Part shown: piece after piece, positions 13,310 through 18,136 of the stretch | Layout: every line of letters begins with the position of its first letter | Position numbering within the stretch: the first letter of the stretch is position 1 | Source of the DNA: Thalassomonas sp. RHCl1 | GTDB taxonomy: Bacteria; Pseudomonadota; Gammaproteobacteria; Enterobacterales; Alteromonadaceae | Direction: 5' to 3' | Length of the DNA stretch: 64,000 nucleotides | NCBI RefSeq assembly: GCF_947387555.1 | Contig: NZ_CANDNZ010000012.1 | Location: 1 to 64,000, forward strand | Program-made: the position numbers and the translations under genes | The notes under the pieces: generated by a model | Told to the model about the DNA's origin: nothing | Seen by the model: the letters and a program-made list of their open reading frames with translations, nothing else | Databases searched by the model: none

Positions 13310-14833
13310 ATGAACAAATTTAAACTTAGTGTGATCTCAGCAGCGTTACTGACCATGGGCATGCAGGCCCAGGCAGCGACTGACTTATTCTCTCCAGCAA
13401 GCAATGCCGAAATGAATGCCGTGCAAACATTAAAGGCAGATGTTAACAAGCGCAGCCTGTTTCACATTAACAAAGGAGCTTTAAAGCAAAGCACTAAAAG
13501 CTTAAATATCCAGCTTGATGACCAGCTCAATATCGAGTTCGACAGAACCAAGGCCAACATGAGCAAATCCGGCTCCATGATTTGGCAAGGTGAAGTTTCT
13601 TCAGAATTTTTAAGCCTGAACAGCAATGCCGATGCATTAACCAAGCAGCAAAACTCTGCTATTTTAGTTGAGCGTGACGGCACAGTGACCGGTACTGTAC
13701 GCTATGAAGGTAAATTATACCGCATCCGCTCAGTAGGCCAGGGCAATCACTCGGTTGAGCAAATCAACGAAGACGTCTTTAAAGATCACGCCGATGATTA
13801 TGTAGAGCCGGCAAGTGCCAGTTTCGATGCTTCTTCACAGCCCACAACCTTAGCCGCTAACCCGGTTATCGACGTGCTGGTCGTCTATACCTCAAAAGCC
13901 GCCAGCCTGTCCGGTAACATTTCGGCTTTGATTGATCTGGCTGAAACAGAAACCAATAACGGTTACAGCACCAGTGGCGTTAACGCCAGCGTCAATATCG
14001 TGCATACCGCGCAAGTCAGCTATACCGAGCACAGCAATTCAGAAACCGACTTAAACCGTTTAGCCGCCACCAACGACGGCTACATGGATGAAGTACATAC
14101 CATGCGTGACACCTATGGCGCCGATATGGTGGTATTGGTACATGACACCAATGGTTACTGTGGCCAGGCAGATGCCATTTATGCCAATGCTTCAAGCGCC
14201 TTTGCCATCGTCGATTATGACTGTGCCACAGGTTACTACTCTTTCGGCCATGAATTAGGTCACCTGCAGGGTGCCCGTCATAACCCGGAAAATGATCCGA
14301 CAAATTCCCCGTTCTCTTACGGTCATGGTTACCAGGATCCAAACGGCAACTGGCGTACGGTGATGGCCTATAACTGTAGCTCAGGTTGTACCCGTCAGTT
14401 ATTCTGGTCTAACCCGAACAAAACTTACGGCGGCACAGCCACCGGCACCAGTTCGCGCAGTGACAATACCCGGGTATTAAATGAAACTGCAGCCACCATG
14501 GCGGCCTTTAGAACTGCCGGTGCGCCAAGTGACTGGACCACAGTAAGCCACAGCAATTTATCTGCCAGCAGCAAAAACTGGGTACGTTTTGAGCAAGAGA
14601 TCCCGGCAGGCACGACTCAGCTGGTAGTGGATATTACCGGCGGTAGCGGTGATGCCGATCTGTATCTGCGCAGCGGCAGCGCCCCGACCACAAGTTCATA
14701 TTCTTGTCGTTCATGGGATTACGGTAATACCGAAACCTGTACTATCAACAACCCAAGTGCAGGTACCTGGCATATCGGCATTCATGCCTACTCAGCCTTT
14801 AGCGGTAACAATATTACCTGGAAGTACAAATAA
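13310..14833 (+). CDS. secreted M12B-like zinc metalloprotease with PPC domain
   Basis: This 507-residue exported protease has a signal peptide (cleavage near AQA/AT at 22), a propeptide to about residue 180 and a metzincin catalytic domain. The zinc site is HELGHLQGARH (H314, E315, H318, H324), with Met-turn M352 (RTVMAYNCSSGC). A C-terminal pre-peptidase (PPC) domain (about 408-507) follows; it is usually removed after secretion. The catalytic domain resembles bacterial reprolysin-like or peptidyl-Asp metalloproteases. The RBS is AAAGGAAGATAAA. It stands directly upstream of the twin small peptide genes, but a terminator separates them, so a role in their processing is only a possibility. 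Confidence 0.93.
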   Translation: MNKFKLSVISAALLTMGMQAQAATDLFSPASNAEMNAVQTLKADVNKRSLFHINKGALKQSTKSLNIQLDDQLNIEFDRTKANMSKSGSMIWQGEVSSEFLSLNSNADALTKQQNSAILVERDGTVTGTVRYEGKLYRIRSVGQGNHSVEQINEDVFKDHADDYVEPASASFDASSQPTTLAANPVIDVLVVYTSKAASLSGNISALIDLAETETNNGYSTSGVNASVNIVHTAQVSYTEHSNSETDLNRLAATNDGYMDEVHTMRDTYGADMVVLVHDTNGYCGQADAIYANASSAFAIVDYDCATGYYSFGHELGHLQGARHNPENDPTNSPFSYGHGYQDPNGNWRTVMAYNCSSGCTRQLFWSNPNKTYGGTATGTSSRSDNTRVLNETAATMAAFRTAGAPSDWTTVSHSNLSASSKNWVRFEQEIPAGTTQLVVDITGGSGDADLYLRSGSAPTTSSYSCRSWDYGNTETCTINNPSAGTWHIGIHAYSAFSGNNITWKYK

Positions 14834-14990: not shown

Positions 14991-15040
14991 TTTACACATG
15001 GTTAATGTCTGTTATGATGCCAAAGGTGTATTATTTACAC
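14991..15040 (+). promoter_or_regulatory. promoter and start-site inverted repeat of peptide gene 1
   Basis: -35 TTTACA (14991-14996), 16-bp spacer, -10 TATGAT (15013-15018), then the inverted repeat GTGTA-N5-TACAC (15026-15040) over the expected transcription start. The same elements at the same spacing precede the second peptide gene, so the cassette was duplicated with its control region. Confidence 0.75.
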
Positions 15041-15064: not shown

Positions 15065-15271
15065 ATGAAATTATCATTAAATAAAAATAAATTAAAAACC
15101 CTTTCTCAGGACAAAAACGTTTTACCTGCCGAAGCGACCATGCAAATAGGCGGCGCTGCGGTAACGGTTTGGACCCGTGACGGAGGCTGTGAAGGTCCTT
15201 TCACCGGTCAATGTACTGACACTTGCCAGGGCAGTGTTGGCGCTACCTGTGCTACCTCTAACCAGTGTTAA
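15065..15271 (+). CDS. GG-leader RiPP-like precursor peptide 1
   Basis: This 68-residue peptide starts at the ATG at 15065, preceded by a strong AAAGGAG. The first 30 residues are a Lys/Leu-rich leader ending in a double glycine (QIGG, 27-30). The leader has the L-x-L-x-K...L-x-x-L pattern seen in class I lanthipeptide-type precursors of Bacteroidetes and some Gammaproteobacteria. The 38-residue core is rich in Thr, Ser and Cys (C42, C50, C54, C62, C68; seven Thr, two Ser), with the invariant block CTDTCQGSVGATCATSN. No LanB/LanC, radical SAM or cleaving ABC transporter gene is nearby, so modification would depend on enzymes elsewhere. It could instead be a disulfide-bonded bacteriocin-like peptide. 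The class assignment is inference. Confidence 0.8.
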   Translation: MKLSLNKNKLKTLSQDKNVLPAEATMQIGGAAVTVWTRDGGCEGPFTGQCTDTCQGSVGATCATSNQC

Positions 15272-15597
15272 TAGCATAATGCTTTCGGCTCTAAACGGTT
15301 TTCGTTTAGAGCCAACGACAGTAAAATCAGCCACACCGCAAACCTTAGTCCCCTTTTCGCTAGCAAGTAGAGATAAAGCCGCCCTTATTTTTCAATATGT
15401 TTCATCACTGTAAACAACCGCCCTTAGCACTAACTTTATGAACCAGGGAGCTGGTCGGATATTATTAGCCCTGTTTTTTCTTTTGCACCAGCTATATAGA
15501 AAAACAAATAAGCAACACACCATTTACATGGTATTAATTTCTGCTATGATGTTTCCGTGCATTTTTTACACGGTTTAACATTAAAATGGAGTTAACA
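15272..15597 (+). other. 326-bp spacer between the two peptide genes
   Basis: The spacer holds a perfect 11-bp hairpin just after the first stop codon (GGCTCTAAACG 15287-15297 with CGTTTAGAGCC 15303-15313, no T-run) and the promoter of the second gene (15523-15573). Between them I see no gene or recognisable modification-enzyme remnant. Confidence 0.7.
15523..15573 (+). promoter_or_regulatory. promoter and start-site inverted repeat of peptide gene 2
   Basis: -35 TTTACA (15523-15528), 16-bp spacer, -10 TATGAT (15545-15550), then CCGTG (15555-15559) and CACGG (15569-15573) as an inverted repeat over the expected start. The arms differ in sequence from those of the first gene, but the arrangement is kept, which points to a conserved operator or 5' hairpin. 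Confidence 0.75.
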
Positions 15598-15804
15598 ATG
15601 AAATTAACCTTGAATAAAAAAAAATTAAAAACCCTTTCCAAGGATAACAATGTTTTACCTGCCGAAGCGACCAGACAAATCGGCGGAGCTGCAGTAACGG
15701 TTTGGACCCTTGATGGTACCTGTAATGGCCAGTTTACAAATCAATGTACTGACACTTGTCAGGGCAGTGTTGGCGCTACCTGTGCTACATCAAACATGTG
15801 CTAA
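15598..15804 (+). CDS. GG-leader RiPP-like precursor peptide 2
   Basis: This is a 68-residue paralogue of the preceding peptide, 57 of 68 positions identical. The leader (MKLTLNKKKLKTLS ... RQIGG) and the core block CTDTCQGSVGATCATSN are kept, as are all five cysteines. The eleven changes are 4, 8, 15, 17 and 26 in the leader and 38, 41, 43, 45, 48 and 67 in the core. Position 41 adds a Thr next to the first core Cys. The core variation sits between the fixed Cys/Thr positions, as expected if a common modifying enzyme tolerates variable ring residues. The RBS is ATGGAG before the ATG at 15598. A good intrinsic terminator follows. Confidence 0.8.
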   Translation: MKLTLNKKKLKTLSKDNNVLPAEATRQIGGAAVTVWTLDGTCNGQFTNQCTDTCQGSVGATCATSNMC

Positions 15805-15815
15805 TTAACACTTTC

Positions 15816-15850
15816 GGGTATATACGGTCAAAACGTATATACCCTTTTTG
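15816..15850 (+). terminator. intrinsic terminator after peptide gene 2
   Basis: Perfect 11-bp stem GGGTATATACG/CGTATATACCC with a 7-base loop, then TTTTT. It sits at the same place, after CTTTCG, as the unrelated hairpin following the first peptide gene. Confidence 0.88.
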
Positions 15851-16009: not shown

Positions 16010-18136
16010 ATGCCGTTAAGCTCTCTTCCCCTGTCTGTTAAAATTCTTTTCACCATGGCATTGGGCCTGGTTATCGGCGGCATTAGCCAGACCGAAGTGC
16101 CGGCTATCGGCGCGCTGGCCGACACCTTTGTAACTTTATTGCAAATGACCGCCTTGCCCTATATTGCCCTGTCCCTGATTGTCGGTATCGGCGGACTATC
16201 GCCCTTGCAGGCGGGTAAAGCCTTTAAACAAAGTCTGCTCATTTTGGTCCTGCTGCTCTTTATTGCCCTGATCTTTATCTTTTTAACGCCGCTTGCTTTT
16301 CCAAACTGGCCAAATGCCGACTTTTACAGCCCGGGGGCGATAAAAGCACCGGACGAATTGGAGCTGATCGCGTTATTGATCCCCGCCAACCCCTTTTATG
16401 CCCTGGCCCATACCATAATTCCCGCGGTCGTGCTGTTCAGTATTTTTGTCGGTATCGGCCTGATGTCGGTGAAAGGTAAAAGACATACTTTGTCGGTATT
16501 AACCAGCTTACAGGCGGCGGTCGCCAACATCAGCAATATGGTGATGCGCTTTGCCCCGCTCGGGGTCTTTTGTATCGCCTATCGCGCGGCGGCCACCATA
16601 GAGGCAGCACAAATTGACGGCTTGTTTGTTTATATCATCAGCTCCACCCTGGTAGTCGCGCTATTGTCATTTGCGGTATTGCCCGCCACCGTTGCCCTGC
16701 TTACCCCTTTTAGCTACCGCCAGCTGGTCAAAGCTTTTCGGGAAGCCATGGTCACTGCTTTTGCCACCGGCAGTTTTTTTATTGTTATCCCGGTGCTGAT
16801 CGAAAAGACCAAAGCACTGCTGGCACAAAACCAGGCAAGTTCGTCATCGACCAGCCATAACGCCAATATTGAAAAAGTGCCCGGTATTTTAATCCCGATT
16901 TCCTTTAGCCTGCCGGTGGGTGGGAAATTACTGGCAATTCTCTTTACCCTGTTTGCCGCCTGGTTTTCCGGCGCCTATATTTCATCGGGGGATTACCTGA
17001 TGCTGCTACTCGCCGGTTTACCCCAGTTATTTGGCACCAGTACCTTGGCCATGCCTAAGTTGCTGGAATTATTTAATGTGTCCGCCAGCATGTTTGACTT
17101 TTTCATCGTTGCCGAAAACCTGATCATCGGCCGTTTGTCTGCGGTTTTATCTGTGAGCTTCGCCACTTGCCTGCCGCTGCTGCTCGCCTGTGCCATGAAT
17201 AACACCATCAAGGTAAAATGGCGCTATCTGGGCCGCAACCTGATGATTATTCCCGCCGTTTCCATCGTGTTATTTTTATCCTTACGCTTTGGTTTTAATG
17301 AAATCGGCCACCAGTACCAGGGTTACGACAACTTTATCAACCGCGATTTTTTGCACCCTGAGGTCAAGAGCCGCAATCTCCCACAGGCACAGGAGCAGCT
17401 GTTAAATGCCCGGCCTTTTACCAGCGTATTAACCCGGATCAAGCAAAGAGGTTTTATCCGTGTCGGTTATTTCCGTGACGATCTGCCCTACGCCTTTCAC
17501 AACGGCGAAGGCAAATTGGTGGGCTTTGATATTGAAATCATGCACCTTTTGGCAACCGATCTCCAGGTAGAGATAGAGTTTGTTAAAATTTACCATCACC
17601 AGGCGGCTGCCCTGCTTGCTTCCGGCTACCTGGATATCACTTCAGGGATCCCGGTGATCCCGGATAACCTCAGGGAATTTACCCTGACGGCGCCATACAG
17701 CCAGCAATCGCTGGCGTTTTTGGTTAAGGATGAACGCCGCAGCGAATTCGTCCGCTGGCAGGACATTACCGCACGGGAAGATCTCACCATAGGCATACCG
17801 GAAACCTTCTTTTATCAAAATGCCGTACAAAGATATTTTACCCGGGGCAAGGCCTGGGAAATCGCCAGCCCGAGGTTATTTTTCCGCGATCAATATCAGC
17901 ATATAGACGCCATGTTATACGGCGCTGCCGCCGCATCCGCCTGGACTTTGCTCTACCCGGATTATACCGTGATAGCCCCCAAACCTGTGCTGCCGCCTTT
18001 GGCCATGGCTTTTCCCATCAATAAAAACGATCAGGAATTTGAGCTCTTTATGCGTAACTGGATAGCCATGAAGCAGAAAAACAATAGCCTGGCAAGGTTA
18101 TTCGATTACTGGATCGGCGGTAAATCCCCCAAGTAA
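16010..18136 (+). CDS. DAACS-type carrier fused to a family 3 solute-binding domain
   Basis: This 708-residue membrane protein carries a dicarboxylate/amino-acid:cation symporter (SDF) domain of multiple membrane segments in residues 1 to about 425. A linker leads to a family 3 periplasmic binding domain from about 468 to the end (RGFIRVGYFRDDLPYAF ... GKLVGFDIEIMHLLA). The two are normally separate proteins; here the binding domain would be tethered to the membrane. The hallmark coupling motif of the carrier (NMDGT type) is replaced by LPVGGK (301-306). The TM8 block reads AENLIIGRLSAVLSVSF instead of the usual D...R...N pattern, so transport by the normal mechanism is doubtful. The RBS is weak. 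It may act as a sensor-like or altered carrier. Confidence 0.85.
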   Translation: MPLSSLPLSVKILFTMALGLVIGGISQTEVPAIGALADTFVTLLQMTALPYIALSLIVGIGGLSPLQAGKAFKQSLLILVLLLFIALIFIFLTPLAFPNWPNADFYSPGAIKAPDELELIALLIPANPFYALAHTIIPAVVLFSIFVGIGLMSVKGKRHTLSVLTSLQAAVANISNMVMRFAPLGVFCIAYRAAATIEAAQIDGLFVYIISSTLVVALLSFAVLPATVALLTPFSYRQLVKAFREAMVTAFATGSFFIVIPVLIEKTKALLAQNQASSSSTSHNANIEKVPGILIPISFSLPVGGKLLAILFTLFAAWFSGAYISSGDYLMLLLAGLPQLFGTSTLAMPKLLELFNVSASMFDFFIVAENLIIGRLSAVLSVSFATCLPLLLACAMNNTIKVKWRYLGRNLMIIPAVSIVLFLSLRFGFNEIGHQYQGYDNFINRDFLHPEVKSRNLPQAQEQLLNARPFTSVLTRIKQRGFIRVGYFRDDLPYAFHNGEGKLVGFDIEIMHLLATDLQVEIEFVKIYHHQAAALLASGYLDITSGIPVIPDNLREFTLTAPYSQQSLAFLVKDERRSEFVRWQDITAREDLTIGIPETFFYQNAVQRYFTRGKAWEIASPRLFFRDQYQHIDAMLYGAAAASAWTLLYPDYTVIAPKPVLPPLAMAFPINKNDQEFELFMRNWIAMKQKNNSLARLFDYWIGGKSPK

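Follow-up and report, generated by a model that had tools for sequence, protein, structure and literature searches.

A probable dispersed class I lanthipeptide system with common-leader precursors throughout a Thalassomonas genome

Introduction

The class I enzymes and the local operon of the system considered here are already known. Thalassomonasins A and B of Thalassomonas actiniarum have cores of 25 amino acids with three Cys and 26 amino acids with two Cys, according to the available part of a review (PMC11433236, for Thetsana 2022 and Vermeulen 2022), which also gives 4, 2, and 2 Cys for the viridisins VdsA1-3 of T. viridans. As described in that part, lanthionine peptides were obtained when the matching published operon was expressed, the host being E. 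coli for the thalassomonasins. Scattered substrates have been reported elsewhere, 29 for ProcM and 79 for SyncM in the accessible portion of PMC10783134. The prochlorosins and synechococsins in question combine a class II LanM with Nif11-type leaders and come from picocyanobacteria. To our knowledge, one-enzyme scattered lanthipeptide repertoires are known only for class II ProcM-type enzymes.

In the available text of a mining study of more than 100,000 genomes, precursors were restricted to seven genes either side of a LanC-domain protein, a limit under which scattered precursors would be missed. Judged by titles and the beginnings of abstracts, the papers listed in our literature searches give no account of scattered class I precursors, and the two primary papers on the Thalassomonas operons could mention more.

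Here, we analyzed a pair of short genes in a 64,000-nt stretch (the window) of the genome of Thalassomonas sp. RHCl1. Sequence comparison makes it very likely that both genes belong to a set of 28 class I lanthipeptide precursors with a common leader, all served by shared LanB, LanC, and C39 machinery. We consider it probable that they belong to a dispersed class I system with one LanB, at least two LanCs, a separate C39 exporter, and a genome-wide library of independently controlled precursors, in which LanB would be naturally promiscuous like ProcM.

Results

A GG-leader gene pair in the window

The pair and its flanking genes are as follows.

13310-14833, plus strand: metalloprotease of the M12 (reprolysin-like) type carrying a PPC domain, immediately preceding the pair (Pfam)
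15065-15271, plus strand: precursor peptide gene 1, 68 aa, a 30-residue GG leader and a 38-residue core with five Cys
15598-15804, plus strand: precursor peptide gene 2, with 57 of its 68 aa shared with gene 1
16010-18136, plus strand: symporter gene, downstream flank of the pair (Pfam)

Both 68-residue ORFs were found as the initial annotation had described them, with a GG leader, 38 residues containing five Cys after the GG, and 57 of 68 positions identical, and both genes are covered by a 226-nt direct repeat of 84% identity. The same annotation had placed no modifying enzyme or exporter in the window, and LanB, LanC-like, and C39 peptidase profiles gave no match there. Look-up of the pair in Pfam and NCBIfam returned chance-level matches only and no lanthipeptide family, so profile-based naming failed. 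The leader resembles lant_leader_L1a, lant_leader_L1b, and TIGR04149, which are likewise short, K/L/N-rich, and end in GG; the window pair gave no match to any of the three, and weak matches appeared in three of eight other family members tested from this genome, with best scores below the curated cut-offs (10.1 against 22 bits for L1a, 13.0 against 27 for L1b, and 16.8 against 25 for TIGR04149; the NCBIfam leader scan covered 10 of the 28 precursors of this genome). Judged by orthologues in the same slot of three sister species and a leader that recurs 29 times in the genome, the pair are not chance ORFs.

The upstream metalloprotease is probably secreted, and its synteny with the pair is kept in the sister species. 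The downstream protein joins a sodium:dicarboxylate symporter (SDF) domain to a family 3 solute-binding domain, a fusion that, as far as we know, seems unusual.

Precursors with a common leader occur at 21 places in the genome

A genome search for further copies of the leader had been proposed in the initial annotation. With peptide 1 as query, the 7.56-Mb genome (39 contigs) returned 29 matches at E ≤ 10, and a leader model built from 27 leaders (A1) returned 29 at E ≤ 3.3e-11, with the next match at 0.33. Intact precursor ORFs of 46–69 residues underlie 28 of the 29 leader matches, the single copy with a stop (TAA) being C27:12567. Joining members less than 2 kb apart, the 28 intact precursors stand at 21 places on 14 contigs.

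Leaders and cores differ sharply in how far they are conserved within the genome: taking the first 31 residues as leader and the rest as core, mean identity over 378 pairs was about 64% for leaders and about 17% for cores. Cys is present in 27 of 28 cores and in none of the leaders, and core composition includes 12.7% Thr and 10.3% Cys. The leader/core statistics drew on 115 places read in this genome and its relatives, with C27:12567 excluded and two of the 115 left out for being shorter than 40 residues (G003:C1:4271670 and G001:C1:5489711, a broken copy that ends at 23 residues). With one shared ring-forming enzyme very probably acting on all the precursors, this genome appears to hold a natural library of varied ring-shaped peptides.

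A local expansion is seen at G000:C3:614716-615778 (L023), where four precursors stand in tandem and an RYCASDI core block is common to three. At L137 (G001:C1:5386113 and 5386742), two precursors have identical leaders and core starts, and one of them continues into a long, unlike C-terminus of the sort that a frameshift or a recent fusion would leave.

A single LanB lies in a thalassomonasin-type operon

The Lant_dehydr_N profile had one match in the genome, on contig C10, whereas the window pair lies on contig C12. This LanB has 1064 codons, contains both Pfam domains (glutamylation and elimination) over their length, and aligns with NisB over its length. In that alignment, R836 and R881 correspond to NisB R784 and R826, and R836, R881, and H1031 are invariant across six aligned LanBs; NisB positions 784, 826, and 961 are elimination residues. 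The operon reads LanC and LanB on one strand, and then two leader-bearing precursors. Three hallmarks of a class I lanthipeptide system were found, namely a full-length LanB, a separate LanC, and a precursor with a leader and a Ser/Thr/Cys core.

The two operon precursors have 25 residues with three Cys and 26 residues with two Cys after the GG, matching thalassomonasins A and B as given in the available part of the review, although leader length is 29 residues there and 31 by our count (PMC11433236). The operon cores of the sister species G001 carry 4, 2, and 2 Cys, as VdsA1-3 do in the same source, where VdsA1 has 25 aa compared with 26 after the GG in the G001 core (PMC11433236). From core lengths and Cys numbers rather than from sequence, we infer that the LanCB operon of this genome corresponds to a published thalassomonasin-type cluster, in so far as the consulted part of the review describes it. 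The precursors of the thalassomonasin and viridisin operons have the same leader family as the window pair, but the pair lies outside the LanCB operon and its cores are unrelated to theirs. Another 24 precursors of this genome, with unrelated cores too, also lie outside it, leaving two of 28 inside, and under model A1 the two leaders beside LanB score lowest among the intact ones. The suggestion in the initial annotation of a potentially undescribed natural product family therefore holds in part: the LanCB operon matches the published thalassomonasin clusters by core length and Cys number, and what seems new is the dispersed precursor repertoire.

The genome encodes two LanCs, on C10 and C5, both with WCYGD and CHG motifs, which carry the Cys-Cys-His zinc ligands of LanC. 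The C5 LanC is 65% identical to the operon LanC of G027, 50% to that of G020, 41% to the C10 LanC, and 40% to that of G019, and it is conserved at 82–97% in the sister species. At L163 (G003:C1:4781799-4783265), a leader peptide is followed by a third LanC, with no LanB within the stretch read. A PmbA protease beside the LanB operon was considered as leader peptidase and rejected, since by ORF layout it stands with darP at the same site in G001 and is likely housekeeping.

The leader co-occurs with LanB across genomes

A search of 59 related genomes recovered the LanB protein in eight, with one match each, and the leader model hit exactly those eight (29, 23, 29, 15, 2, 13, 3, and 2 matches). 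A larger sample of 394 genomes from the same order, with at most 20 leader candidates scored per genome, gave the leader in five genomes and LanB alignment A2 in the same five. Three genomes are common to the two draws and the positive genomes are partly related, so the counts are not independent, and because of this overlap and relatedness we offer no probability as proof of co-occurrence. Leaders stand near LanB or LanC in Rheinheimera, Colwellia, and an Alkalimonas MAG; in G020, all 13 leader matches fall outside the LanB stretch that was retrieved.

A search with alignment A2 yielded 80 LanB loci (a scan with the single LanB protein gave no relative), all of which were searched for leaders over the retrieved sequence, and 35 of them were selected for a broader leader search, which left out one of these (L252). 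With the broader leader model A3, leader matches were present in 37 of 38 LanB-bearing genomes, numbering 1 to 73 per genome, with 58–73 in a group of Pseudoalteromonas genomes that includes Pseudoalteromonas luteoviolacea H33-S (73), MMG020 (69), and MMG009 (60). The one genome with no A3 match despite a LanB was Photobacterium arenosum.

The genome also encodes a LanM (contig C26) with DUF4135 and LANC_like domains, and this enzyme, not LanB, might modify the window peptides or many of the set. Such a reading would fit locus L150 (G001:C2:376880-379500), where a LanM sharing 81% identity with the C26 enzyme over 535 residues is followed, some 0.9 kb downstream, by a leader peptide. The leader, however, co-occurs with LanB across genera and sits close to LanB/LanC in the three groups named above, and we regard modification by LanM as improbable. 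Modification by the single LanB would agree with what the initial annotation had supposed, a distant synthetase serving many precursors: the one LanB, its adjoining LanC, the 28 common-leader precursors, and the co-occurrence of leader and LanB all point to it. The LanB/LanC and C39 transporter genes that it had proposed to look for are all present outside the window.

Cys-free cores of leader peptides occur at several Pseudoalteromonas LanB loci, with a repeated NTDTVTQ (L226 and L251), a short NTDTITQ (L229), or SSDTSVT (L224, L227, L255, and L268). If modified, these cores would carry dehydro-residues without thioether rings.

A candidate exporter is encoded apart from LanB

LanB adjoins two ORFs in G019, G020, G027, and G031, one encoding a C39 ABC transporter and the other a membrane fusion protein (by Pfam for G019). 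Among the 50 LanB loci taken for a neighbor-gene search, a LanC was present in 50, a fusion protein in 44, and a relative of the contig C6 transporter of our genome in 46, the other four being stretches that end at a contig end. The C6 transporter has the Pfam domains C39, ABC_membrane, and ABC_tran, and upstream of it on the same strand lies an HlyD-like protein 60% identical to that of the G020 LanB operon. It is 79, 76, 63, and 51% identical to the LanB-operon transporters of four other genera, compared with at most 51% for its five paralogues in the same genome, and its conservation among the three sister species is 96–98%. Further C39 transporters come fairly close to it (61% in G002, 56% in G031, 54% in G019, and 52% on contig C1 of our genome), and the non-operon transporter of G031 (56%) is closer than the LanB-operon transporter of that genome (51%), so more than one exporter is possible. 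By this evidence, the pathway seems to have been taken apart, with one cyclase, the dehydratase with the other cyclase, the exporter, and the substrates at separate places.

At L136 (G002:C1:86157-92167), a leader-like match that does not begin with an ATG of its own lies about 4 kb from a second C39 transporter, the one 61% identical to the C6 transporter. A leader peptide also stands beside the C6 transporter in our genome and all three sister species; this peptide (L029, G000:C6:218157-218351, and orthologues) has a Cys-free core and may be a signal or a substrate of the export step alone.

The family could, in principle, consist of unmodified or disulfide-bonded GG-leader bacteriocins or signals exported by C39 transporters, with LanB limited to its own operon. 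The Cys-free peptide beside the C39 transporter in four species and the several Pseudoalteromonas leader peptides without Cys in LanB loci are what this explanation would lead one to expect, but C39 domains are also present in 8 of the 14 genomes used as controls, whereas the leader tracks LanB exactly (8/59 and 5/394), and the Thr and Cys content of the cores also counts against it. We judge it quite improbable.

Orthologous precursors are conserved between species

The slot occupied by the window pair holds one copy in G001, one in G002, and two in G003, gene 2 being absent from it in two of the three sister species. An extended -10, five Cys, and a GGAGTTAACAATG start are retained by all six slot copies. 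Among reciprocal orthologues whose cores are 60% or more identical, a cut-off that biases the values low, dN/dS of leader and core was 0.08 and 0.07 against G002 (22 pairs), 0.08 and 0.10 against G003 (6 pairs), and 0.06 and 0.12 against G001 (8 pairs, with a core dS of 1.5, near saturation). Within the compared pairs, these values indicate that orthologous cores are kept, though paralogous cores are unrelated.

These data bear on whether most orphan copies are non-functional duplication remnants. Broken copies do exist (C27:12567 with its TAA, and G001:C1:5489711 at 23 residues), and the second copy of the window is missing in two sister species. Against this, 28 of 29 copies in the genome are intact, dN/dS lies at 0.06–0.12 for orthologous leaders and cores, and 27 of 28 precursor genes keep a GGA at most 20 nt before the start, which leaves the remnant explanation hardly credible.

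A proposed class I counterpart of the prochlorosin system

The sequences establish the common leader, the single LanB, their co-occurrence, the transporter relationship, and the conservation of orthologous cores. For leader recognition, dehydration, ring formation, cleavage, export, and separate regulation, we propose the following scheme. The common leader would bring each precursor to the single LanB of the genome, which would dehydrate core Ser and Thr using glutamyl-tRNA. A LanC, either the one beside LanB on C10 or that on C5, would then add Cys to form thioether rings, and the C6 C39-peptidase ABC transporter with its HlyD-like fusion protein may cut after the GG and export the product. 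For the window pair, the scheme predicts monoisotopic core masses of 3781.55 (gene 1) and 3858.57 (gene 2) prior to dehydration, less 18.01 for every water lost, with 9 and 10 Ser/Thr available.

Prochlorosins and synechococsins likewise have one synthetase, a conserved GG leader, hypervariable cores, and scattered precursor genes, as far as the consulted portion of the literature describes them. The Thalassomonas system differs in its class I LanB, separate LanCs, and short lysine-rich leader; in Pfam and NCBIfam, the leader had no match to a Nif11-type/ProcM precursor family, and the co-occurring enzyme is LanB. Among the traits of prochlorosin systems, a single synthetase (here LanB), scattering, and core variation were observed, and promiscuity is predicted. 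By sequence, the Thalassomonas system appears to parallel that of the prochlorosins with class I enzymes. If so, tRNA-dependent LanB enzymes can be naturally promiscuous, and many products are hidden from genome mining that is restricted to the enzyme neighborhood. The repertoire also provides natural cores on which a LanB type already expressed in E. coli could readily be tried. Because an upstream region of its own precedes most of the orphan genes, the common machinery could make different products as conditions change.

Control elements of the window pair

Candidate control elements around the two genes are listed below.

14991-15018, plus strand: sigma-70 type promoter of gene 1, TTTACA-16-TATGAT with extended -10, 10/12, conserved in six orthologous copies
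15026-15040, plus strand: inverted repeat GTGTA-N5-TACAC near the expected transcription start, a putative operator or 5' stem, weak fold alone
15287-15313, plus strand: post-gene hairpin of gene 1, lacking a T tract (15272-15330 folded, -20 kcal/mol)
15523-15550, plus strand: sigma-70 type promoter of gene 2, TTTACA-16-TATGAT with extended -10, 10/12, conserved in six orthologous copies
15555-15573, plus strand: inverted repeat CCGTG-N9-CACGG near the expected transcription start of gene 2
15816-15844, plus strand: post-gene hairpin of gene 2, with a T tract, scanning as intrinsic terminator-like

The duplicated layout of promoter, start-site inverted repeat, and post-gene hairpin, already noted in the initial annotation, is present at both genes, with a T tract at the second hairpin only. 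By count, promoter-like sites were not above chance (4, compared with 2.4 in shuffles), and the promoter calls are supported by their conservation in the six orthologous copies instead. An operator or 5' stem common to all orphan genes was considered and rejected, as upstream inverted repeats were just mildly above shuffles: p ≤ 0.05 was reached for 4 of 28 precursor genes, compared with 1 and 3 of 28 in the two control stretches, and over all 28 precursors these repeats did not clearly exceed either shuffles or control stretches. At the window slot itself, the start-site repeat of the six orthologous copies reads GTGYA/TRCAC, with a T-A pair in three, a C-G pair in two, and a C/A mismatch in the second copy of the window. 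The start-site repeats are weak as RNA folds (z of -1.3 for gene 1 and -0.75 for gene 2), whereas the post-gene hairpins fold at -20 and -17.4 kcal/mol (z of -5.2 and -4.1), values that none of 200 shuffles equaled for either gene.
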